Positions 10,807 through 51,274 of a stretch of DNA of 64,000 nt are shown here, piece by piece. Numbering within the stretch: the first letter of the stretch is position 1; each line of letters starts with the position of its first letter. This DNA is from Thermoplasmata archaeon (GTDB lineage Archaea; Thermoplasmatota; Thermoplasmata; Thermoplasmatales; Thermoplasmataceae), in NCBI GenBank assembly GCA_021810045.1, contig JAJZJR010000001.1:248001-312000 (forward strand). The letters run 5' to 3'. The position numbers were made by a program, and so were the translations under genes. The notes beneath the pieces were generated by a model. It made no database searches. It was not told the origin of the DNA and saw only the letters and a program-made list of their open reading frames with translations.

Positions 10807-11625
10807 TCAATCTCGGTCTTGTCCCCGTTGTCTTCGCATAGATTCGTTGATTGGCCTGACCATATCAATGAAGCTTGAAGTATCTATGTCCCCTACCTGC
10901 TGGTAGATTGTCGTAACAAAAGGGTCCCCATGTCCCAGCCATCTCTGTGCAATTGTGATTGGGATCCCTCCCACGGCACACCTCACCCCAAAAGTGTGCC
11001 TGAACATGTGCGGATGAATCTTATGCAGCTGACCTTTCTTTTCCTTGGATTTCACATACTCAATCCCCGTGATGCCTGTCTCTTCCCCTATCTTCTCAAT
11101 GAACTTCTTGACGGCCGAATAAGTCATTGGGAACAGATAATCCCTGGAACTGGAGTCAATCGGGATTCCCGTGTATCTCCTTACGCGGTCCATGTATTCG
11201 TAGAGAGCGGTCTTCAGTTCCGACTGGATTGGAATTTTCCTAGTTGGCTGCACCCGTCTCTTCTTTTCGCTCTGGACATACAGGGTTCCATACTTGCCTT
11301 CATCGAGGGCAAAGTCAATGGGCCTAATGCCATATGTGAGGCCAAGTCTATTATCGTACCAATGAATGGCCTCCCCGACCCTCACCCCGGTACTCAGCAT
11401 TATTTCAAAAAGAAACCTGTATCGGTACATGTATAGTTTCTTCTTGCCGGAATATTGCTCTATTCTCTTATCAACGTATGCGAGGATCTGATCCACCTCA
11501 TCATCCTGGAAATAGGCATAGGTCAACCGACCCCTTAGTGAAGTCTTGATCTTGACCCCTCTTCCTGGGGCTATAACCGGCATCATGTTAAACTCCAGAA
11601 AACACCTATCTTTATAAACATTCAT
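10807..11625 (-). CDS. Tyrosine recombinase/integrase (272 aa)
   Basis: Catalytic pattern of phage-type integrases: Arg I in STGVRVGEAIHWYD (near residue 78), the HxxR box in HPHMFRHTFGVR (near 206), and the last His and nucleophilic Tyr in WLGHGDPFVTTIYQQVG (near 233-243). There is also an N-terminal SAM-like segment, somewhat short. It would integrate or excise a circular element by site-specific recombination. It is intact and lies between the defence island and the large element. No att core was recognised beside it, so which segment it mobilises is unclear. Confidence 0.9.
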   Translation of the reverse strand: MNVYKDRCFLEFNMMPVIAPGRGVKIKTSLRGRLTYAYFQDDEVDQILAYVDKRIEQYSGKKKLYMYRYRFLFEIMLSTGVRVGEAIHWYDNRLGLTYGIRPIDFALDEGKYGTLYVQSEKKRRVQPTRKIPIQSELKTALYEYMDRVRRYTGIPIDSSSRDYLFPMTYSAVKKFIEKIGEETGITGIEYVKSKEKKGQLHKIHPHMFRHTFGVRCAVGGIPITIAQRWLGHGDPFVTTIYQQVGDIDTSSFIDMVRPINESMRRQRGQDRD

Positions 11626-16323: not shown

Positions 16324-17376
16324 CTATAATTCATCATAGTCGTACTGTATGGGAGGATGGTATATCCCAACGTATCTCTTCAGAGCTTCTGGTATCTCAA
16401 TCTTCTCTCCGCACCTTGGGCACCTTGCCTTATGCCAGGAGGGTTTCTTGTAATCCCAGACATACTGACACGTAGGACAGTAGAGCTTGACTCCAAACTC
16501 CTTCTGCAGTACCACTTCGGCATCTGTCTTTTTCTGGGGCTGGGGCACAGGAGGCTGTTGGGTTGGAACTTCTTCGTCCTCTCCCAAAACCTGGCCGCCA
16601 TTGGTCAGGCTCCTTTCCATCCTGTCAAGCTCTTCAACTGCCTTTGTTTCGCTCACATAGACGTCCCTGAGCCAGACCTCTTTCCTTTCCTCATAGACCC
16701 TTGTGATGTGCCTGAACGGATGCCTGAAGTGTATGATGTTTTCCTCGATTATGATCTTCCTGTAGTTCTGGTATCTGACTATCCTGAAACGCCTGTACCA
16801 GTTGCCGTCCATGTTCCTGAATGCAGGCGGAATGACCCTGAAGACCTTCATCACGCCTTTGCGCTCCATCTCCTGGTCTGAATCAACCTTGGGAGTGGGG
16901 GATTCAAAGAGCACTGACATAAGCTTCCTTGTCTGGCTGTCGAGGTATTCCATCTTCGGGGTTGTAATGATAACGATGATCCCGAAGATCCTGAACGACT
17001 GGGCAACCTTTGCAAGCAGCTTGACCCTCTTTTCGTGCCAGTCCCTTGAGTTCGCGTCTACGCCTGCATCATCGAAAATGATGACGGATCCCCTGGGCAG
17101 CCTCGAGGTGATCTTCTTTGCGAATTCCCTCACGGTGAAGACAATGTTGTCTGCAGTGAAGTTGGGATCAATTGCCTGGGCAAGAGTGATTGCAGAATAG
17201 GACTTCCCGGATCCCATGGCCCCTACAAAGGCGATGATCAGGGGCCAACCGTTCTTGATTCGTGTAGCAACCCAATGGAGGAACCAGATTACGTGAGCCT
17301 TTGGAGAAACCTCCACGTCCGGGACAGAAGCGTCAGGACTGTAGTCAGGGTTGAAATCGTCCTGCGCCCCTATCAT
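16324..17376 (-). CDS. P-loop ATPase with C-terminal zinc ribbon (350 aa), element motor
   Basis: Walker A is FVGAMGSGKSYSAITLAQ (near residue 42) and Walker B is GSVIIFDDAG (near 92); a sensor-like VIITTPKMEYL follows. The C-terminus has CPTCQYVW and CPRCGEKIEI, a zinc ribbon. The overall plan resembles DNA-packaging or DNA-transfer ATPases of archaeal viruses and plasmids more than replication helicases. Start ATG 17376 was chosen because GGAGGACTCAAT precedes it and it overlaps the TGA of the upstream gene; an in-frame longer start lies inside that gene. It is the last gene of the operon that starts at 25203. Confidence 0.75.
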   Translation of the reverse strand: MIGAQDDFNPDYSPDASVPDVEVSPKAHVIWFLHWVATRIKNGWPLIIAFVGAMGSGKSYSAITLAQAIDPNFTADNIVFTVREFAKKITSRLPRGSVIIFDDAGVDANSRDWHEKRVKLLAKVAQSFRIFGIIVIITTPKMEYLDSQTRKLMSVLFESPTPKVDSDQEMERKGVMKVFRVIPPAFRNMDGNWYRRFRIVRYQNYRKIIIEENIIHFRHPFRHITRVYEERKEVWLRDVYVSETKAVEELDRMERSLTNGGQVLGEDEEVPTQQPPVPQPQKKTDAEVVLQKEFGVKLYCPTCQYVWDYKKPSWHKARCPRCGEKIEIPEALKRYVGIYHPPIQYDYDEL

Positions 17377-18041
17377 ATTGAGTCCTCCGGCCCGATGGTC
17401 TCGTTCTGCCTTATGACCTTTGGCGGAGCTACAAGACCCTTCCTGTTCAGCAACCCGGATAAGGCTGCAAGCCACTTCTGGCAGAAGTTGTACCTTGCCT
17501 CAAGATACTGTTCCTCATCTCTCATTGCGATAATCTTCCTGTCGTCGGAAACAAGCTCTGCGGCCATCTTGAAGTAAGGAGTGTCATACAGTTCCCCAAG
17601 CATGTCGTGGATGGTCTGGATGCTCCGGAGAAGATAGTTTACGTGGGCCCTCGACACTATGCCATTTGATGCTATCCCGGCAACCTTGTAGAATCTCCTG
17701 AGCGCCTTTGTCTCAATGTCCCACTTCTTCCTGTACAGCATGGAAGAGATGGAGCCAAACCACCTGTGGCTGAAATCATACCTGTTCGCCAGGTAGTCCT
17801 CATCATTGGCGAGTGCCATCAGCCGGTAGTCGTATTCCTCAAATTCCTTGCACTCATTCTTGTAGATGTCATCGAATTCATCATTCAGGAGGCCGTGCAC
17901 CGTGGCAAGGGACTTCAGGATGCTGTTCACGTGGGCCATGCCTGTGTGGCCTTCTGAGAGAAGCCCCGCAACAAGGTCGTAACGCTGCATGATGATCCAT
18001 TTGCCCCCGTTTCCCTGGTCCTGGGTCATGTTTTCCGTCAA
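17373..18041 (-). CDS. Hypothetical protein with an internal duplication (222 aa)
   Basis: Two halves repeat the same helical pattern: AHVNSILKSLATVHGLLNDE ... LANRYDFSHRWFGSISSMLY and AHVNYLLRSIQTIHDMLGEL ... LEARYNFCQKWLAALSGLLN. There is no membrane segment. The TTG start has AGGAAGTGAACAG before it. Its stop overlaps the ATPase start, so the two are translationally coupled and the protein may be an ATPase partner or adaptor. Confidence 0.65.
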   Translation of the reverse strand: MTENMTQDQGNGGKWIIMQRYDLVAGLLSEGHTGMAHVNSILKSLATVHGLLNDEFDDIYKNECKEFEEYDYRLMALANDEDYLANRYDFSHRWFGSISSMLYRKKWDIETKALRRFYKVAGIASNGIVSRAHVNYLLRSIQTIHDMLGELYDTPYFKMAAELVSDDRKIIAMRDEEQYLEARYNFCQKWLAALSGLLNRKGLVAPPKVIRQNETIGPEDSI

Positions 18042-20722: not shown

Positions 20723-20875
20723 CTACAACCCAAACGGCAAATGCACGTGATAGCCTGACCAGAAGTTATGCCAGTAAGTCTGCAGGTTCAGTGCCGTTAC
20801 GTGTGCTGCACCAAGCCCCATAATGATCAGGAATACTATGATCAAGACAATGGCAAGGTCTTTGAGAAGCCCCAT
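20723..20875 (-). CDS. Small single-span membrane protein (50 aa)
   Basis: Frame starts at ATG 20875, overlapping the TGA of the 120-aa gene (ATGA), and ends 11 nt before the next gene. The sequence has one membrane helix (LLKDLAIVLIIVFLIIMGLG) followed by a short aromatic tail (YWHNFWSGYH). Tight packing and coupling support its reality despite its size. Confidence 0.6.
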   Translation of the reverse strand: MGLLKDLAIVLIIVFLIIMGLGAAHVTALNLQTYWHNFWSGYHVHLPFGL

Positions 20876-21237
20876 CAGCTTCGTCCTCCCCTATTCCTGT
20901 TTCTGACCACCAACGGGCCTTCCATCAGCGTGAAGGTCTTTTTGTCGGTATCTGTGGGAATCCCCATTCTCCTGGCATACCTGTTGACATAGGCTTTGTC
21001 TTCAGCAGGGATTCCATTGAACCTGGTATGCTTGTTGAACCCTACGAGTGCTGACAGTTTCTCCCTCACCTTCTTGACTCCGTACGCTTTGACGGCTTCC
21101 CTCAGTGCTTTCTCTCTAACCTGGTCTGTTTCGTCCAGATGGTAACCGAACACAATCAGGCTGTTTGGATGCTTGATTATAGACTCCCCGGTTCCATCCA
21201 TTGCCCAGTTTTCCGGGCTCTCCAATTTCTGTTTCAT
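20875..21237 (-). CDS. Small soluble protein (120 aa) with a virus-like ALREAVKAYG motif
   Basis: Preceded by GGAGTGAAATAA. The middle region (KALREAVKAYGVKKVREKLS then ALVGFNKHTRF) resembles, by eye, a short domain found in proteins of large DNA viruses and phages; I cannot confirm the match here. No catalytic motif is visible. Belongs to the ATPase operon. Confidence 0.6.
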   Translation of the reverse strand: MKQKLESPENWAMDGTGESIIKHPNSLIVFGYHLDETDQVREKALREAVKAYGVKKVREKLSALVGFNKHTRFNGIPAEDKAYVNRYARRMGIPTDTDKKTFTLMEGPLVVRNRNRGGRS

Positions 21238-22573: not shown

Positions 22574-23467
22574 TTATTTGGCGGGCGAAATCATCACCGT
22601 TAAAGTTCCTGCGTAACCTCCCGATCCGCTTGGCTGGTACACCGGCGTATCCAGAATCAGCGGCTTATCGTCACCGAACATGAATGAAATGTTCGGGGGC
22701 GTGAATTTCTCATATAGTTTCAGGGCCTGCTTGAGTTGCCTTGCCTTCACGAATGTGTAGACGGGATTCTCATTGTTTGAAACCGTGGCCCCTTCCACTG
22801 TGAGCACCGGTCCATTCTGGCTGTACGGGAATATCTTGAATTCCTCATAAACAGGGTCCCACTCAATCTGTACAAGTGTGTCACCCGGAACCTTCTCAAG
22901 GCCGGCCAGGAGAACTCCTGCGGAATTGTCCGGGAGATATCCCTGCACTTCAGTTACGTTCTTCACTCCCTTTACCTGGGTCTTGATTTCCTGCAGCTTC
23001 AGGCTCGGGTTGGACTCTTCCCTGACCCCACCATTGCTGTTGACGTAGAGAACCCTGTTTCCATCGTCAAGAGGGTACATCCTGAACCATTCCATAGCCA
23101 CGAAAATGTCATTGTTGGGGCTTGCTGAGCCTACCAGGATGTTTCCGTCCTCGAAGTAGATGGCTGTCTGGTAATCCGGCAGAGATTGGTACAGCTCCTT
23201 TGCCACAAATGGAACCATTTCGAGGTTGGTCGCCTTGGTTCCCCGCTGGTCAAAGTACTTGAATTGCGTCATGAAGGGAGCCCAGAGATTCAGGGATTTG
23301 CTTGTCTGCAGAACCTGCACCTGTTCTTCCGGAAACTCTTCCCTCAGAACGTCGGCAAGCATATTCGCCTTCGCCTTTGGGTATCCCACTCCATTGTTCA
23401 GGGGGTACTTGTAGGTCTCCCCATTTGCCTTCCTCTTGGTCCTTACAGGTCTCTTGATTGATGCCAT
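22574..23467 (-). CDS. Hypothetical protein with a clamp-like C-terminus (297 aa)
   Basis: Start behind GAGGTGACTGG. A basic N-terminal tail is followed by a globular alpha/beta protein. The C-terminal end (NISFMFGDDKPLILDTPVYQ then GTLTVMISPAK) looks like the last strands of archaeal PCNA sliding clamps (xxFGxDxPLxL...GxLxFxxAP). The rest does not match obviously, so this is a suggestion only; a capsid or other structural role is equally possible. Second gene after the frameshift cassette. Confidence 0.55.
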   Translation of the reverse strand: MASIKRPVRTKRKANGETYKYPLNNGVGYPKAKANMLADVLREEFPEEQVQVLQTSKSLNLWAPFMTQFKYFDQRGTKATNLEMVPFVAKELYQSLPDYQTAIYFEDGNILVGSASPNNDIFVAMEWFRMYPLDDGNRVLYVNSNGGVREESNPSLKLQEIKTQVKGVKNVTEVQGYLPDNSAGVLLAGLEKVPGDTLVQIEWDPVYEEFKIFPYSQNGPVLTVEGATVSNNENPVYTFVKARQLKQALKLYEKFTPPNISFMFGDDKPLILDTPVYQPSGSGGYAGTLTVMISPAK

Positions 23468-23476
23468 CCAGTCACC

Positions 23477-23857
23477 TCAATCGTATGCCTCATCGTCTGA
23501 GTCCTCTATGGCCTCCTGAAGCTCCTTGACAATGTCCTTCGACACTTCAGGAGTAATCTTTTCACTTGGATCGTCCATGTACTCCCCGTTCTTGTAGTAA
23601 TACTCAAAGATCTCATTGACAGAAACGGGGTCAAGGCCGGTCATTGAATTCTTGTAAGCATTCATCATAAGCTGCCTCTGCTTTGATGAGGGCATATAGG
23701 CCATTGCCGCAATCCAGTTTCCGCCGTTGAATGGAGCCGAAGAAGCGGAGAATGGCTCGAAGAGGTCCATTGCCGTCTTTGAAGCTGGCGAAGTTGGAGT
23801 TGGCTTTTCCCTTGAAGGTTTCGCTTCACGTTCGGGGGTTTGGCTACCCCCTGTCAG
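23477..23857 (-). CDS. -1 frameshift extension / 97-aa downstream frame
   Basis: The frame is open from the shift site to 23477. Its first ATG (23770) gives a 97-aa acidic helical protein (MDLFEPFSASSAP..., ending EDSDDEAYD), but no ribosome-binding site precedes it, unlike its neighbours. The 29 codons before that ATG encode a stop-free Pro/Ser/Thr-rich linker (LTGGSQTPEREAKPSREKPT onward). The simplest reading is that it is translated mainly as a C-terminal extension of the 449-aa protein by -1 frameshifting, giving a product of about 575 aa. Confidence 0.65.
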   Translation of the reverse strand: MTGGSQTPEREAKPSREKPTPTSPASKTAMDLFEPFSASSAPFNGGNWIAAMAYMPSSKQRQLMMNAYKNSMTGLDPVSVNEIFEYYYKNGEYMDDPSEKITPEVSKDIVKELQEAIEDSDDEAYD

Positions 23858-23863
23858 TTTTTT
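23834..23863 (-). promoter_or_regulatory. Programmed -1 ribosomal frameshift signal
   Basis: Reading on the minus strand: GGA AAA AAC TGA. The heptamer A AAA AAC (23863-23857) is in the correct zero-frame phase for tandem -1 slippage, directly before the stop codon. After a 5-nt spacer (TGACA) comes a perfect hairpin GGGGGT-AGCCAA-ACCCCC (23851-23834). The -1 frame has a stop (TGA) only four codons upstream of the site and none downstream until 23477. Confidence 0.7.
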
Positions 23864-25203
23864 CCATCGTCCTCATCGTCGCTGTCGTCCCTTGAATCCA
23901 GGAAATCTTCGTATGCATCAGCGGTTTCAGCAGTATCAGATGTGAATTCAGTCCACTGTTCCCTCAACTTCTGGTCGGATTGCATGAGCCTTGCAAACTC
24001 AATCGGGTTTGCAGGAAGGTTTTCACCGCGATGATCCTTGGCAAACTGTGTAACGAGACCTTTCTGTATCCTGTTCACGAATCGGTTTGCACCGTTGAAC
24101 TTCCCTCTCTTAAGCTGCTCTCCGATGCTGTTGAGGTTTCTGCCAAGTTCAGTGGCAGACGTTTTTCCTCCGTACAGGTATGTCGCAGCTTCATTTGGCG
24201 TTATGTTGTATGCCAGGGCAGCATAGGCAGCCACATTCCTGGCAACCTTTGAACCTTTGCCGAGCCTTTCCCTCAGGGTATCTGAATAAGTCCCGTTGAC
24301 CTTGAGGTCGTCCGAACCAGAAATGAGAGTTCTTGTGGCCTCCCTTATCCCGAAATCCGGCTCTCCGCCTGAGGGTGTTCCCTGAGATTCTCCCCCTCCT
24401 GGCGCCGCAAGTTCCGGAGAAAAAGGTGGAGCTACGGGATTTGTGACCGGGCTCTCGAAATTAAACGAACCACCGGGTCCCAGACTACCTGGGTTGTTTT
24501 CCTGTAACTTGACACCTGAACCCACAAGCCCCCCAACATGCCTGTTGAACTGCTGCAGGCTGACGAGCACGTTATCGAGAAAGGTCGCGTTTCCAAGTTG
24601 TGCAAGGATTTTAGAAAGTTCGGAAGACTTGAGTGTCCCCACCGGGTACAATACTCCTGGAGAGTCCTTGGATGGCCTTGAGAGGTAATAGAAAGTGCTG
24701 TTGTCAGCAAGGCCCATGTAAAGATTCGGAGCTATGGGAATGATGCCAAGGTTCGCAACGGGAACAGCCGATTTCTGGAAATTTGTTGATCCAATCAGGT
24801 TTGTTCTTCCTGGAGCGTATGCAGCATCTGCCACGCTCACGTTGCTTAGGCCCATCTGCTTTATGAACGCAGCTGCACTCTGCGGGTTGCCTATCAGGAG
24901 CTGGTGAACCGCGTGCATATCAATCCCCTTCAGTAGCAGACTGTGGAGATAGTTCAGGTCTTCCATTGCAAGTTTATAATTTGCTGAATAGAGCTGCTGA
25001 TGCTGCTGAATCTGCCCGGCCGCAGCCAGGATTGCCTGACGGTGCTGTTCCGTGTATCCGGATATGTTCTGGATACTCTCTTCACTCAACTGGAACTGCT
25101 CGTCCCTCTTCCTCTCTTCGCGACTGATCATTCTTCCAAAAATAGGAATTCTCTTCTTTCCCACTTGGGTTTCTTTCGTGATGAACTTGACGTCATTCGC
25201 CAT
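23854..25203 (-). CDS. Operon-leading structural-type protein (449 aa), frameshift donor
   Basis: Begins MANDVKFITKETQVGKKRIP with an IPIFGR motif and then a charged helix; the middle has Gln-rich helices (AAAGQIQQHQQLYSAN), a Gly/Pro/Ser-rich linker near residues 245-280, a helical domain (YAALAYNITPNEAATYLYGG) and a very acidic end (DSRDDSDDEDDGKN). Its first 43 residues recur in the 81-aa protein at 46793-47038. It is expressed from promoter-module copy 1 with GGAGTGAAAGCC as ribosome-binding site, and its last codons form the -1 frameshift site. Abundant structural or assembly protein is the best guess. Confidence 0.65.
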   Translation of the reverse strand: MANDVKFITKETQVGKKRIPIFGRMISREERKRDEQFQLSEESIQNISGYTEQHRQAILAAAGQIQQHQQLYSANYKLAMEDLNYLHSLLLKGIDMHAVHQLLIGNPQSAAAFIKQMGLSNVSVADAAYAPGRTNLIGSTNFQKSAVPVANLGIIPIAPNLYMGLADNSTFYYLSRPSKDSPGVLYPVGTLKSSELSKILAQLGNATFLDNVLVSLQQFNRHVGGLVGSGVKLQENNPGSLGPGGSFNFESPVTNPVAPPFSPELAAPGGGESQGTPSGGEPDFGIREATRTLISGSDDLKVNGTYSDTLRERLGKGSKVARNVAAYAALAYNITPNEAATYLYGGKTSATELGRNLNSIGEQLKRGKFNGANRFVNRIQKGLVTQFAKDHRGENLPANPIEFARLMQSDQKLREQWTEFTSDTAETADAYEDFLDSRDDSDDEDDGKN

Positions 25204-25260
25204 TAGGCTTTCACTCCGGTTAACAATAAGATCGTAAAGTTATAAACATTCTCAAAAAAG
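25204..25260 (-). promoter_or_regulatory. Repeated promoter/leader module, copy 1
   Basis: On the minus strand: TATA box GTTTATAACTTT, then ACGATCTTATTGTTAAC, then the binding site GGAGTGAAAGCC and the ATG of the 449-aa gene. The same arrangement recurs near 36300, 47075 and 52290 with few changes. Confidence 0.75.
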
Positions 25261-25618
25261 GGCAGATTGCCTACTTCCCGAATAGATATTTTTCGAGGTG
25301 AGGCCTTCTTTAACAGATTCATTTATTATTGTAAAACATGAACTTCAGGAGCAACTTTTATTTTCACAAAGAGCCTGTTATTATCGGTATTCTACGTAAA
25401 CTTAATACAGAAATGCACAGAAGGATCAATTGTAGATCAAGTCTTGCCTGAACTAGTAATTTATCGTGAAAGACCTTTCAAATCACACTTTAGGGCGGAG
25501 AGACTATCGTGAAAATCCAATTGGACAGCGACTTAAGAATGAACCAGTTCTTGAATTAGTGCAATAAGTTATGTCCTACACTATAAAAATAGAAAGATGA
25601 AGAAAAGCATCACCTCTT
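25261..25618. other. AT-rich gap between the GmrSD gene and the ATPase operon promoter
   Basis: About 360 nt without a supported gene. Only very short frames occur, and none has the element-type binding site. It probably marks the left junction of the inserted restriction cassette (GmrSD plus AbrB), since its base composition matches that cassette rather than the element core. Confidence 0.4.
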
Positions 25619-27484
25619 CTAAGCAATTTCTGAAAAGACCCTTGGATTGTAGATTTCCCTGAGTATTTCTTCATACAAATCCTGCCTTTGATCAACACTT
25701 GCTTTTTCAAAGTGCGGATATGACTTGAATGGTAATTTCACATTCGTGATGTATCTAAGAAACGCAGGGTTGTTCTCATAGCATTTAGAATTAAGGGATT
25801 TGGCAAGCAAGTTCTGGCCAAAATAATGCTCAACTTTTTGTTCGTATGGCATCGCCCCATAACTTCTATTGAAGCTAAATGGCAATAGCAAGAGACCGCC
25901 AAGACTATTCCGGTAATCCATGAACTCTTCTTCGTCCTCAAACTCACTCTGGTGGTTTTCATAGTAATTTGCTGGCATAATGTGTTCTATGTCAAATTTA
26001 CCCCTAAGATAATCCACGAACTGATAACTAAGTCCGGACGCTTTCTCGAGATGTGCGGTCATCTTCGCCAAGAGGAAGCGTATAAAATTCTTGTTTTGCC
26101 CGTGAAGAACCAACTCATTTACTTTGTCCAAGTTGTACTCCATCTTTGAAACTCTATCTTTGAATATCTCCGCTAATTCCTTAACATTCTTATTTCTAAT
26201 TTCTTTAGTAAGCGAATACATAGTATATCTTATCGAACTTTGGTAGTACCCCTTGTAGTTTACCGCCCTAAACACAACGAAAAATTCTAGATATGCTGAT
26301 GCAAGTCTTAGTTTCTTGTCGATAGTGTCAACGTCATCGTCTATTGTGATAGGTGCCATAAGAAATGGATAGAAAATTGAAAATGCCAGACCTCTTTCGT
26401 TTATGTTATAAATACTCTCAAATTCGGGGTAGAAATTGTCTTGATAGTGAATTATCTTACGGTATATATCAAGATAAAAGGGAACATCTCGTTTGATGAA
26501 ATTTGCGAAATCCTGGGACTTATTTAAACCAATGACATCTTTCTCGTTTTCTCGGAACCACTGATGGAAACGGGTACCAATTTTTTCAAAATCTTCATTT
26601 TCAGCGCCTTCCCTACCTTGCCTGATTGTTACTGCATATTTAGCTCGTAGAAATGCCCTAAAAAATTCGTTGAACTCTTCGTTGAGATATCTGGAATCGA
26701 CAATTTCACTAAGTTTTGATTTCTGTTCCCTCCAGATTTCGTTCAGGTCACTTCTTTCTGCGCGTGGAGACTTCGCCAGTACGTATCCTTTCAGCATATC
26801 TGAAGGTGATAATTGTAATCCTCTGTCATTCATAGCCTCAAAAATGGTATAGGCATCCTCCTCAGAAAAGGTGAAAATTTCTACAAAGGATACTTTCTCT
26901 GTCAACCAGTCTATAAAATATGGCAATGCAATTCCATCTATTTCGGTGGGGAAAAAATCTTGAATCTCTCCGTAACGCTCCAAAATGCTGCTAACTGATT
27001 CATCGACAGGATCGTTACCACTTGGTAATCTATATTCTCCTGATTCCAAGAGACTTTTCATGCAATCCTTTCTATCCTCTATGTTTAGGTTGAAGGATTT
27101 TTCACCATACTTCTCTGAAAATATAAGTTGGTCAATTGGAACCGGATTCGGGGAATCCTCTTGAAGATGGTGTAAGTATATTAACAAAAGAGTCAGGGAG
27201 GTTAATCTCTGTTGACCATCCACTATTGACATCTGCCCATCTTTTGAATTGATAATTATTGGGCCAAGAAAATACCCTCCATAGTCTTTTACTTCGCTCC
27301 TAGTATGCGTTGGTTTATAACTCTCAAGGAATTTTTCTGTCAAATCCCCTATAAATTGTTGCATGTGCTTTGTCTCCCATAGGTATTCCCTTTGGTAGTA
27401 GTCCAATGTGTACTTATTCTTAGCGAGTACTTCCCAGACCGACCTCGGTTTTGCATCGACGATTCTAAATGTATCTCTTTCCAT
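25619..27484 (-). CDS. GmrSD-type (DUF262/DUF1524) modification-dependent restriction protein
   Basis: 621 aa in one chain. The N-terminal DUF262 (ParB/sulfiredoxin-like) domain carries the diagnostic DGQQRLTSLTLLL near residue 90, preceded by YQREYLWE. The C-terminal DUF1524 HNH nuclease shows FDIEHIMPANYY and the later NSLGGLLLLPFSFNRSYG. Such proteins cut DNA with modified bases (glucosylated cytosines in the type member) in an NTP-dependent manner. It is AT-rich compared with the flanking element genes and sits between two structural operons, so it is probably inserted cargo. An AbrB-type gene lies 81 nt upstream. Confidence 0.85.
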   Translation of the reverse strand: MERDTFRIVDAKPRSVWEVLAKNKYTLDYYQREYLWETKHMQQFIGDLTEKFLESYKPTHTRSEVKDYGGYFLGPIIINSKDGQMSIVDGQQRLTSLTLLLIYLHHLQEDSPNPVPIDQLIFSEKYGEKSFNLNIEDRKDCMKSLLESGEYRLPSGNDPVDESVSSILERYGEIQDFFPTEIDGIALPYFIDWLTEKVSFVEIFTFSEEDAYTIFEAMNDRGLQLSPSDMLKGYVLAKSPRAERSDLNEIWREQKSKLSEIVDSRYLNEEFNEFFRAFLRAKYAVTIRQGREGAENEDFEKIGTRFHQWFRENEKDVIGLNKSQDFANFIKRDVPFYLDIYRKIIHYQDNFYPEFESIYNINERGLAFSIFYPFLMAPITIDDDVDTIDKKLRLASAYLEFFVVFRAVNYKGYYQSSIRYTMYSLTKEIRNKNVKELAEIFKDRVSKMEYNLDKVNELVLHGQNKNFIRFLLAKMTAHLEKASGLSYQFVDYLRGKFDIEHIMPANYYENHQSEFEDEEEFMDYRNSLGGLLLLPFSFNRSYGAMPYEQKVEHYFGQNLLAKSLNSKCYENNPAFLRYITNVKLPFKSYPHFEKASVDQRQDLYEEILREIYNPRVFSEIA

Positions 27485-36264: not shown

Positions 36265-36338
36265 GGCTTTCACTCCAACTTAACAATAAGATCGTAAAGT
36301 TATAAACATTCTCAAAAAAGTTGAAAATTAAGGCTTAC
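36265..36338 (-). promoter_or_regulatory. Repeated promoter/leader module, copy 2
   Basis: TATA box GTTTATAACTTT, then ACGATCTTATTGTTAAG, then TTGGAGTGAAAGCC. Similarity to copy 3 continues upstream of the TATA box (AACTTTTTTGAGAAT and TAAGCCTTAATTTTC), covering about 74 nt. It drives the leader frame and the giant PKD gene and starts at the 3' end of the 116-aa gene. Confidence 0.75.
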
Positions 36339-36685
36339 GGAATGAATTTGATGATCACTTTCACCGTGGTGATAATGCCCAGGAACAGGCCAATCAAGAC
36401 CAGGATTCCAAGAACTGCACCGAACAGGCCAAGGGAACTCACCGCAATCACTCCGATTTGAATGACTGAATTGTATGCAACAGCTATGGCATTAAATACA
36501 GTGCCTAAAACCGTAAGGAATGCTGCAACTGCATCCTTGACGAAGCCTTCAACGGTCGAGAGAGCAGCATTACCAAGCCAATTTGTTAAATTACCAACAG
36601 TGTCATTATAAATAGTGCTTGGGCCCACCCAGAAGGTTGCTACGATTGAAGACCAGAATGCTGAAACAATAGACCAGCCTGACAA
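36335..36685 (-). CDS. Membrane protein of the small-membrane-protein cluster (116 aa)
   Basis: Three hydrophobic segments: an N-terminal one (SIVSAFWSSIVATFWVG), a central amphipathic helix (VEGFVKDAVAAFLTVLGTVF) and a C-terminal pair (IAVSSLGLFGAVLGILVLIG and LGIITTVKVII). TTG start with GGAGTG 9 nt upstream. A truncated second copy of its C-terminal 80 residues exists at 48823-49068, so it belongs to the duplicated part of the element. Likely forms an oligomeric membrane component, e.g. a viral membrane or channel protein. Confidence 0.65.
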   Translation of the reverse strand: MSGWSIVSAFWSSIVATFWVGPSTIYNDTVGNLTNWLGNAALSTVEGFVKDAVAAFLTVLGTVFNAIAVAYNSVIQIGVIAVSSLGLFGAVLGILVLIGLFLGIITTVKVIIKFIP

Positions 36686-46799: not shown

Positions 46800-47038
46800 G
46801 GGACCACCTCAGGTGCAAATCCAATATGGGAAAAATCGACTGTAGAACCCCGTATCTCAACGGTCCCATCATATTCATGTTCAGTCCCATATTTTATTTG
46901 AACTAAAATGTTCTCATCATTTAGCTGGAACTGTTCTTCTCTCTTCTTTTCTTCGTGAGTGAGGATCCTTCCGATGATTGGTATCCTCCTCTTCTTACCC
47001 TCTGTTTCCTTTGTGATAAACTTAACGTCATTTGCCAT
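46793..47038 (-). CDS. Short paralogue of the 449-aa protein's N-terminus (81 aa)
   Basis: First 43 residues (MANDVKFITKETEGKKRRIP, IPIIGR, EEKKREEQFQL) are nearly the same as in the 449-aa protein at 23854-25203; the rest (about 38 residues) is unrelated. Driven by promoter-module copy 3 with the same GGAGTGAAAGCC site. It looks like a duplicated promoter plus 5' gene end fused to new sequence, now heading the helicase operon. Confidence 0.65.
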   Translation of the reverse strand: MANDVKFITKETEGKKRRIPIIGRILTHEEKKREEQFQLNDENILVQIKYGTEHEYDGTVEIRGSTVDFSHIGFAPEVVPC

Positions 47039-47040
47039 CA

Positions 47041-47115
47041 GGCTTTCACTCCAAACTATCAATAAGATCGTGAAGTTATAAACATTCTCAAAAAAGTTGG
47101 AAATTAAGGCTTATA
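47041..47115 (-). promoter_or_regulatory. Repeated promoter/leader module, copy 3
   Basis: GTTTATAACTTCACGATCTT, then ATTGATAGTTT, then GGAGTGAAAGCC before the 81-aa gene. Shares about 74 nt with copy 2 including TAAGCCTTAATTTCC upstream of the TATA box, and is almost identical to copy 4 downstream of it. Confidence 0.75.
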
Positions 47116-47177
47116 GAGCTAATTTGGTATGTTTAAGGTAACTATTTATTAAATGGGTTCATGAAATTTTAACGACT

Positions 47178-48822: not shown

Positions 48823-49068
48823 TCACGGAATGAACTTTATGATTACTTTCACGGTGGTGATAATCCCAAAGAACAGTCCAATCAGGACCAGGATCCCAAG
48901 AACTGCACCGAACAGGCCGAGGGAGCTTACCGCAATGACGCATGTCTGTATGACTGAATTGTATGCGACAGCTATGGCGTTAAACACAGTACCCAGAACT
49001 GTCAGGAATGCTGCAACAGCATCCTTGACGAAACCCTCAACTGTGGAGAGTGTTGCATTGCCAAGCCA
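48823..49068 (-). pseudogene. Truncated second copy of the 116-aa membrane protein
   Basis: On the minus strand it encodes WLGNATLSTVEGFVKDAVAA through IITTVKVIIKFIP, nearly identical to residues 35-116 of the protein at 36335-36685. The part upstream is unrelated and has no start codon before a stop at about 49165. It is therefore a decayed partial duplication of an element gene. Confidence 0.75.
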
Positions 49069-49189: not shown

Positions 49190-51274
49190 TTATGGAAGGC
49201 GATCATTCATAAGGTTTGTCCAAGCAATGTAGTCGTGGTTCCCGCTCACAAAGAAATCATACATCGTGTAACTGCCATGTTCAGTTACCACAGAATGGAC
49301 ACGCAAGTATTTTCCGCTGTTCACATTGTATAGCGAGTCATTGGAAGTCAGATTCTGAGCCTGTATGTATCCGTGATTCGTTAGAACGTCCTGATCTCCT
49401 GCCAACTGTAAGTAGCCATTAACAACAACCATCGACGTATGTTGGGAGATGAAGACCTCCAGAACAGTTCCTACCTGCATCTTGCTTGTAGACATATTGT
49501 ATGTCATTATCAGGTCCCCGGGAGCCACATTCTTTGCATGTATGGACGTGCCGTTCCCCATGAGGATAGGGGCATTTTTATATACACAAGACCCTGGTGA
49601 CTGCTGAACGCCGTAAAATTGTACGCTTACAGTCTGGCTGCCAGGAGGAACAAAGTTTCCATTGCCAGGTGAAGGCTCATACCATAAAGTCGTAGAGTAA
49701 TACACGTATGGAGTGGACCAGGGGTTATTTCCAGCGGGCTCACTGAATGAGATGCTGGTTCCAGTTGAACTCTTCTGGACGCCATCAACTTTCACGTTCC
49801 ACTGCTGTCCCGACGGGAGACCTGATTCATCAAAGGTGATTGCCCAATACTGAGTTGGTGAAAACGATATGCTAATCGCTTTTGGAGAGGTTCCCAGATT
49901 GAAGCTACTGCTTGACGGGTTAGATGAGTAGTATTGTACGTTCCCGATGGTGAATGAGTATGTTCCAGGCGGTTCTGTAAACTGAATCTGGCTGCCTGAT
50001 GTTGATTGTTCATAGCCATTCAGTGTGACCGACCAGGTCTGGCCATGGAGCCCCGACTCCTGGAATGTTACCGTGCTGGTATAAAAGTTAACTGAGTTGT
50101 TTCCTCCCACGTTTCCAAGTGCAACGTTTACGCTCTGAATGCCAGAGTCAGAACCCGGCACTTGAACAGTGTAATCTTGCCCAGGCTGTCCGAAAAATCT
50201 GTACTGGCCGGAACTATTTGTTTCAACAAAATAGTTATCATTTACGTACTCCCCCAGTGAAGGGTAATAATACTGCGTGCTGATTTCCACCTGCTTGTTT
50301 GCCTGTGGTTGATCATTTACGTAAACCGTTCCTCCGATAGAATAAGCCGGGACTGTGTTAAGTTGCAATCTTGATACTGCGCCGGTACCATACACTGGAC
50401 CTGTCGGCCCGTCTCCAATAACACGATTTGCTCCGTAAAGATTTATCAGCCCTGTGTCATTAAAATCTATGGAAGGAACTTGCAATTCAATGAATTCGTA
50501 TCCTCCAAAATTATTATACCCATTACCATTGCTCACAATTGTGCCATTTACAACTCCATAGGTCTCTGAGATATTTCCAATTGGACCTATACCGCCTACG
50601 TCTATCACATTCTCAACTTTGCTGTCTCCCATGTATTGCCCAAACAGTTGGCCTGCCCCTATTACGATGCCTACGTAGGGTATCGAGGACATCAGATACT
50701 CCAAAGTTTGATTCAGGGCTTTTGAATAAACATATCCTCCATAGTATGTACCAGTGACATTAAGCCCTCCATTGTATTGAGTGAACAGATTGCTGTTAGA
50801 CCCCGGAACCGAGACATTGTAGGCGATCGTCAAACCATTTACCCCTGCCGCGTATTGATCATATGTGGCCCAACTGTTGTTTGACGCGCCAACAGCTACA
50901 ATTGGGATGTCAACAAGCATTGCCTTATTGGAACTTTGATAATTTTCACTGTAAAGATAAGACAAAGATCCACTGCTTGAAGTCAGTTTGGATGCAAGAC
51001 CAACCATGACTGTATTGGGGTAGAAATAGCCGTTATGCCTTAGATATGAATTAGCTCCGGAAATCACCGGTGGCAAATAGGGATCACTTGCAATTGCAGT
51101 GCTAAGATAGATCGAGTTATTGCCATTGTAACCAGGCCACTGATGATAATTGTTAGTTATGGTCTGGGCCGTTGCAACTTGGGAAAAAAATGAGATACCA
51201 ACTGTAGCAAACAAAATAAAGGCGACGGCTGCTGTCCTAATTTTTCCTATTTTGAAACTATTCTTTTGAAGCAT
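49190..51274 (-). CDS. Secreted multi-domain protein with C-terminal Hint (intein-like) domain
   Basis: 694 aa. Signal peptide (AAVAFILFATVGISFFSQVA), a large beta-rich region, a carboxypeptidase-regulatory-like module (YSIGGTVYVNDQPQANKQVE), two repeats with the pattern FxESGLPxGxxWxVxxxG common in Thermoplasmata surface proteins, then a Hint domain of about 130 residues: GSCVYKNAPILMGNG, VAPGDLIMTYN, AGDQDVLTNHGYIQAQNLTS and FFVSGNHDYIAWTN. Hint domains cleave their own chain at the leading Cys. Here it is C-terminal, as in bacterial/archaeal Hint toxins or Hedgehog-type processing, so the N-terminal part may be released or attached to another molecule. Confidence 0.7.
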   Translation of the reverse strand: MLQKNSFKIGKIRTAAVAFILFATVGISFFSQVATAQTITNNYHQWPGYNGNNSIYLSTAIASDPYLPPVISGANSYLRHNGYFYPNTVMVGLASKLTSSSGSLSYLYSENYQSSNKAMLVDIPIVAVGASNNSWATYDQYAAGVNGLTIAYNVSVPGSNSNLFTQYNGGLNVTGTYYGGYVYSKALNQTLEYLMSSIPYVGIVIGAGQLFGQYMGDSKVENVIDVGGIGPIGNISETYGVVNGTIVSNGNGYNNFGGYEFIELQVPSIDFNDTGLINLYGANRVIGDGPTGPVYGTGAVSRLQLNTVPAYSIGGTVYVNDQPQANKQVEISTQYYYPSLGEYVNDNYFVETNSSGQYRFFGQPGQDYTVQVPGSDSGIQSVNVALGNVGGNNSVNFYTSTVTFQESGLHGQTWSVTLNGYEQSTSGSQIQFTEPPGTYSFTIGNVQYYSSNPSSSSFNLGTSPKAISISFSPTQYWAITFDESGLPSGQQWNVKVDGVQKSSTGTSISFSEPAGNNPWSTPYVYYSTTLWYEPSPGNGNFVPPGSQTVSVQFYGVQQSPGSCVYKNAPILMGNGTSIHAKNVAPGDLIMTYNMSTSKMQVGTVLEVFISQHTSMVVVNGYLQLAGDQDVLTNHGYIQAQNLTSNDSLYNVNSGKYLRVHSVVTEHGSYTMYDFFVSGNHDYIAWTNLMNDRLP

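Follow-up and report, generated by a model that had tools for sequence, protein, structure and literature searches.

A gene with a very likely -1 programmed ribosomal frameshift in a virus-like element integrated in Thermoplasmata

Analysis of a 64,000-nt stretch of DNA (the window; contig JAJZJR010000001.1 of GCA_021810045.1, positions 248,001-312,000) indicated that a signal for -1 programmed ribosomal frameshifting, of canonical type, is carried by a gene of a virus-like element integrated in an acid-loving archaeon of the Thermoplasmata, a reading to which we assign a probability of about 0.85. Coordinates below are window positions unless another locus is named. The original prediction for this site, a -1 frameshift cassette of an archaeal mobile element yielding 449-aa and 575-aa forms of one protein, is supported by the sequences of its relatives. 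Direct reading of the window matched the earlier observation base for base, including the phase of the slippery heptamer, its abutment on the stop codon and the 6-bp hairpin after 5 nt. The features of the site are as follows.

23854..25203, minus strand: zero-frame gene, 449 aa, ending GAT GGA AAA AAC TGA
23857..23863, minus strand: slippery heptamer A_AAA_AAC, in X_XXY_YYZ phase and abutting TGA
23854..23856, minus strand: zero-frame stop TGA, read from the sequence
23834..23851, minus strand: 6-bp stem-loop, beginning 5 nt (TGACA) past the heptamer
23771..23857, minus strand: -1 frame linker LTGGSQTPEREAKPSREKPTPTSPASKTA, rich in Pro, Thr and Ser, with no ATG, GTG or TTG start among its 29 codons
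23477..23770, minus strand: -1 frame extension of 97 codons, coding in that frame by comparison with the relative G079
23871..23874, minus strand: possible Shine-Dalgarno-like GAGG, 7 nt 5' of the heptamer, with the same 7-nt spacing in the relative G098

The arms of the stem, GGGGGT (23846-23851) and ACCCCC (23834-23839), enclose the loop AGCCAA and fold with about -12 kcal/mol (ViennaRNA). The -1 frame is closed by a TGA four codons upstream of the site and is open for 126 codons downstream, both as originally described, and the predicted -1 product of 575 aa consists of the 449 aa, the linker and the 97-codon frame, with residues around GKNLTGGSQTPER at its junction. It had also been claimed that the 97-codon frame lacks a ribosome-binding site among neighbours with strong ones. 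This was borne out, as its ATG has no match to the Shine-Dalgarno consensus and scored -1.4 kcal/mol, compared with -8.3 for the 449-aa gene, -11.3 for the next gene and about -6 to -11 for most other genes of the element. The upstream GAGG is only suggestive as a frameshift stimulator, and its score is weak, as high a value being reached by 15% of background codons for the window and by 5% for G098. An Rfam search returned no match.

Homologous loci were sought in several hundred distinct Thermoplasmatota genomes, sampled in overlapping draws, and the searches included those with a profile of the clamp-like protein encoded by the next gene. In these genomes the gene family was found in four loci: the window, G079 (Thermoplasmata archaeon YP3.bin51, same genus as the window), G098 (same family, other genus) and G167 (Ca. 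Sysuiplasma superficiale, other family). In all four, the gene of 449, 645 or 650 codons is followed by a gene for a homologue of the 297-aa clamp-like protein, and a search of further Thermoplasmatota genomes with the clamp profile gave convincing matches to the same four loci only. No homologue of the 449-, 297-, 343- or 383-aa proteins was found in IMG/VR with single sequences and alignments, phage and plasmid records held no match to the 449-aa protein, plasmid records held none to the 650-aa protein, and no known family was found for the 449-aa protein.

The G079 homologue shares 89% identity with the 449-aa protein, and its locus keeps every part of the cassette exactly: heptamer, stop, hairpin and -1 frame. 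Outside a block of identical sequence around the site, the 97-codon frames of the window and G079 differ at 4, 1 and 18 sites in codon positions 1, 2 and 3, respectively, and because of this distribution the frame is taken to be translated.

The homologue in G098 has 650 codons and about 20% identity, its homology to the 449-aa protein being drawn from gene position and shared motifs, with a BLAST score that is not significant. It ends CGC CCA AAC TGA TGG GGG GAG, in which the heptamer C_CCA_AAC is in phase and abuts TGA. After the same 5-nt gap there is a 13-bp hairpin of -24 to -26 kcal/mol, a strength reached by none of 1,112 comparable local windows, and the -1 frame has 206 codons. The comparison indicates that this cassette is independently built, with different letters and the same geometry. 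Because a distant relative spells the same signal in different letters, the frameshift is very probably real. In G167, one uninterrupted gene of 645 codons occupies the same place in a collinear operon. Its N-terminal part aligns to the 449-aa protein (BLASTP E about 1e-12) and is followed by a Ser/Thr/Pro-rich stretch and, in a low-confidence model, a predicted helical end; an A6 tract near the junction is read AAA AAA. The predicted structure of the long protein had a pLDDT of 38, and no claim is made about its fold.

Chance expectation was estimated from a background set of 87 genes in five loci, none overlapping another and each encoding 150 aa or more. In-frame X_XXY_YYZ heptamers occurred at 0.4% of codons, and a heptamer abutted the stop codon in three of the 87 genes, all three of them members of the frameshift gene family. 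When the 46-nt hairpin piece was shuffled, 6 of 200 shuffles folded equally well. A phased heptamer is present in the window, G079 and G098 and a stem at 5 nt, inside the 5-9 nt range for stimulatory structures, in the window and G098, together with an open, coding -1 frame and conservation. The strength of the case comes from this combination of features and from the independent G098 cassette, not from the window hairpin alone.

Several observations weigh against a programmed frameshift. The family is known from the four loci only, two of which (window and G079) are about 86% identical in DNA over a stretch in which 334 nt around the site show no difference at all, against about 14% in the surroundings. 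Sequence homology of the C-terminal extension, roughly the last 100 residues, was not demonstrable across the three lineages: the 97-aa extension gave p = 0.017 when compared with G098 and p = 0.14 with G167. The window hairpin by itself is only moderately unusual: of 38-nt windows taken from neighbouring genes, 2.8% fold equally well. In G098, the second frame also starts with an ATG, within TGATG. The 334-nt identity was considered as a sign of constraint and dropped, because the lowered divergence between the window and G079 starts about 400 nt upstream, a reach that fits recombination or co-assembly; for the block itself, these appear as likely as constraint. The alignment of homologous loci, suggested with the original prediction as a check, spoke in its favour: G079 keeps the cassette, G098 has an independent one and G167 is fused. 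The identity with G079 is no clean proof of synonymous constraint.

The overlapping TGATG of G098 is the classic layout for coupling, and it is possible that the second frame of G098 is made by ordinary translational coupling alone. That there are simply two separate genes, with translation stopping at TGA and the downstream frame being started by reinitiation or coupling, is nevertheless quite unlikely. The first ATG of the downstream frame in the window lies 83 nt beyond the zero-frame stop and lacks the Shine-Dalgarno sequence that is strong in its neighbours, and no stop interrupts the frame between this ATG and the slip site. Coupling would not lead one to expect phased heptamers, each with a hairpin at the same distance, in both lineages, and the G167 homologue is fused.

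The fused gene of G167 also bears on whether the window holds an assembly error or a pseudogene, in which a 1-nt indel broke a gene that is intact in G167. Homopolymers are error-prone and the flank is identical to that of a low-coverage relative, yet this explanation is very unlikely, since the sequence is the same in two assemblies, a third lineage builds this architecture from other letters, and the codon-position differences show that the downstream frame is kept as coding. Transcriptional slippage, in which RNA polymerase on the A6 run would restore the frame with the ribosome not involved, is the least probable of the three. One extra A in the window's run of six would restore the frame, but a run of six bases is short for known transcriptional slippage, the CCCAAAC of G098 contains no long homopolymer, and slippage of this kind needs no hairpin at a fixed spacing.

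Under -1 ribosomal frameshifting, most ribosomes would read GGA AAA AAC and stop at TGA, producing the 449-aa body, while the GC hairpin 5 nt downstream would pause some of them. The P- and A-site tRNAs would then slip simultaneously and re-pair in the -1 frame, exchanging A_AAA_AAC for AAA_AAA, and the slipped ribosomes would read on through the flexible Pro/Thr/Ser linker and the 97-aa domain to yield a minority 575-aa form. Slippage and its frequency, as well as the use of the frameshift to set a product ratio, are suggested by the anatomy of the site and the comparison of loci.

The gene that follows the frameshift gene and the repeat that precedes it are as follows.

22574..23467, minus strand: next gene, 297 aa, probable divergent sliding clamp (PCNA-like) by fold prediction
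25205..25290, minus strand: promoter/leader repeat (TTTTGAGAATGTTTATAACTT...), common to the unit of a giant PKD gene and a third unit

The 297-aa protein had no sequence match to known clamps. For its low-confidence AlphaFold2 model (pLDDT 55), all 50 listed Foldseek matches in the PDB were PCNA or clamp chains (best E 1e-7, but TM 0.37-0.47), and the protein probably has a divergent sliding-clamp fold. Clamp-like counterparts of this gene are found at L013 10695-11726 and L012 7560-8525. The G098 element also encodes a second protein that resembles PCNA by eye (L026 8712-9509) and that had no database match.

The element extends from an integrase gene (10807-11625) to at least a helicase gene near 46.6 kb. 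An ATPase (16324-17475) matched the PHROG of DnaA-like proteins (B251-type) with E 4.5e-11 and the Haloferax lemon-shaped virus LSV-48N with E 4e-14; in G167 its counterpart is fused to the preceding gene (586 aa). A giant PKD protein of 2,511 aa matched Hoc-like decoration families. Because of the SSV/LSV-type ATPase, the PKD/Hoc-like surface protein and the integrase, the element looks like an integrated spindle-virus-like (SSV/LSV-type) provirus. When a VP1/VP3-type capsid protein was sought, the candidate was a small hydrophobic 116-aa protein (36335-36685) without a PHROG match. G167 shares the gene order of the element. The G098 cassette lies in a different element, integrated at tRNA-Asp; the two elements have no more in common than the frameshift gene, the clamp-like gene and perhaps a 220-aa gene.

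The analogy with phage tail-chaperone genes and insertion-sequence transposases that had been drawn for the site did not hold. No tail, tape-measure, portal or terminase family was detected in the scanned neighbouring proteins, which gives no setting for a tail-assembly chaperone G/GT pair; no transposase was detected among the neighbours scanned, and neither the 449-aa nor the 97-aa protein had a Pfam or PHROG match to a transposase domain (DDE or other). The next gene has instead a probable sliding-clamp fold. Our guess at a role, which is tentative, is that a minority of long forms is supplied of a protein in the element's morphogenesis or DNA-handling module, beside the clamp-like protein; G167 encodes only the long form. 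The protein might be structural, with the extension on a minority of copies, or might handle DNA together with the clamp-like protein. A more specific proposal, and an unlikely one, is that a protein family of archaeal spindle-virus-like proviruses relies on -1 frameshifting, built independently at least twice, to control the dose of its C-terminal extension, and that the protein acts together with a sliding clamp of the virus itself. Frameshift gene and clamp would then be arranged as in dnaX, but with a non-AAA+ protein and in a virion or genome-handling module.

The 449-aa gene is preceded by its own promoter and Shine-Dalgarno sequence, the promoter being of the shared repeat type. Further near-identical copies of the repeat (36265-36350, 47041-47126 and about 52294) head several transcription units, and after one of them lies a truncated duplicate of the frameshift gene, limited to its first 54 codons (46877-47038). 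G098 has its own repeat, likewise upstream of its 650-aa and 170-aa genes. As inserted cargo, the window has a GmrSD restriction gene (25619-27484) at the place of the element where a relative has a set of metabolic-looking genes (L007 1325-7444), and this site is possibly an insertion hotspot. A small protein found in two elements (window 20875-21237 and L012 8552-8821) has a DUF5771 match slightly under the curated cut-off; relatives of DUF5771 occur in large eukaryotic DNA viruses. A 694-aa surface-like protein (49190-51274) has a weak C-terminal HINT-type match, and its gene is adjoined by a truncated copy (48823-48987) of the 116-aa gene.

Known archaeal cases are few, as the original prediction had stated: a 2021 review lists one experimentally shown -1 frameshift, in fucA1, and predicted ones in haloarchaeal tailed viruses (PMC8211752). 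The fucA1 gene for the alpha-fucosidase of Saccharolobus solfataricus uses A_AAA_AAT, while other Sulfolobales have a full-length gene (PMC8211752). The present case resembles it in having an A-rich X_XXY_YYZ heptamer with a stem-loop in an archaeon and a fused gene in another species, here G167. It differs in that fucA1 encodes a cellular enzyme that is inactive without the shift, whereas here a mobile-element gene is concerned, the zero-frame product is most of the protein, the stop abuts the heptamer and a second independent cassette exists in another genus. The tail-assembly chaperone frameshifts of HVTV-1, HCTV-1/2/5 and Hardycor1 (PMC8211752, PMC7911831) are likewise -1 shifts near the end of a viral gene that give a C-terminally extended minority protein, which is here predicted; in contrast to these, no tail-type neighbours and no sequence relation were detected here, and a clamp-like gene adjoins. 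In comparison with the SSV group and LSV-48N (PMC12714723), the element shares a DnaA-like/B251-type ATPase, an integrase, a large Ig/PKD-like surface protein and small hydrophobic proteins, but clear sequence homology is limited to the ATPase, and no frameshift gene is reported there.

A further comparison is with bacterial dnaX (gamma/tau), which has an A_AAA_AAN heptamer, a hairpin and an upstream Shine-Dalgarno-like element, and whose shift shortens the protein. The likeness extends to the heptamer type, the hairpin, the possible upstream element and, by neighbourhood, a replication-clamp context, whereas here the shift lengthens the protein and no AAA+ clamp-loader domain was detected in its body. 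In conclusion, the programmed -1 frameshift is very likely genuine, and the gene family that carries it, from archaeal mobile elements, is new; the mechanism would be canonical, while the host and gene are unusual. The known systems are extended by a gene family that lies in neither tailed viruses nor halophiles and that has one natural fusion and two cassettes of the same geometry in different spellings. With these, comparison and reporter assays can cleanly test whether the ribosomes of thermoacidophilic archaea use simple signals of slip site and hairpin.
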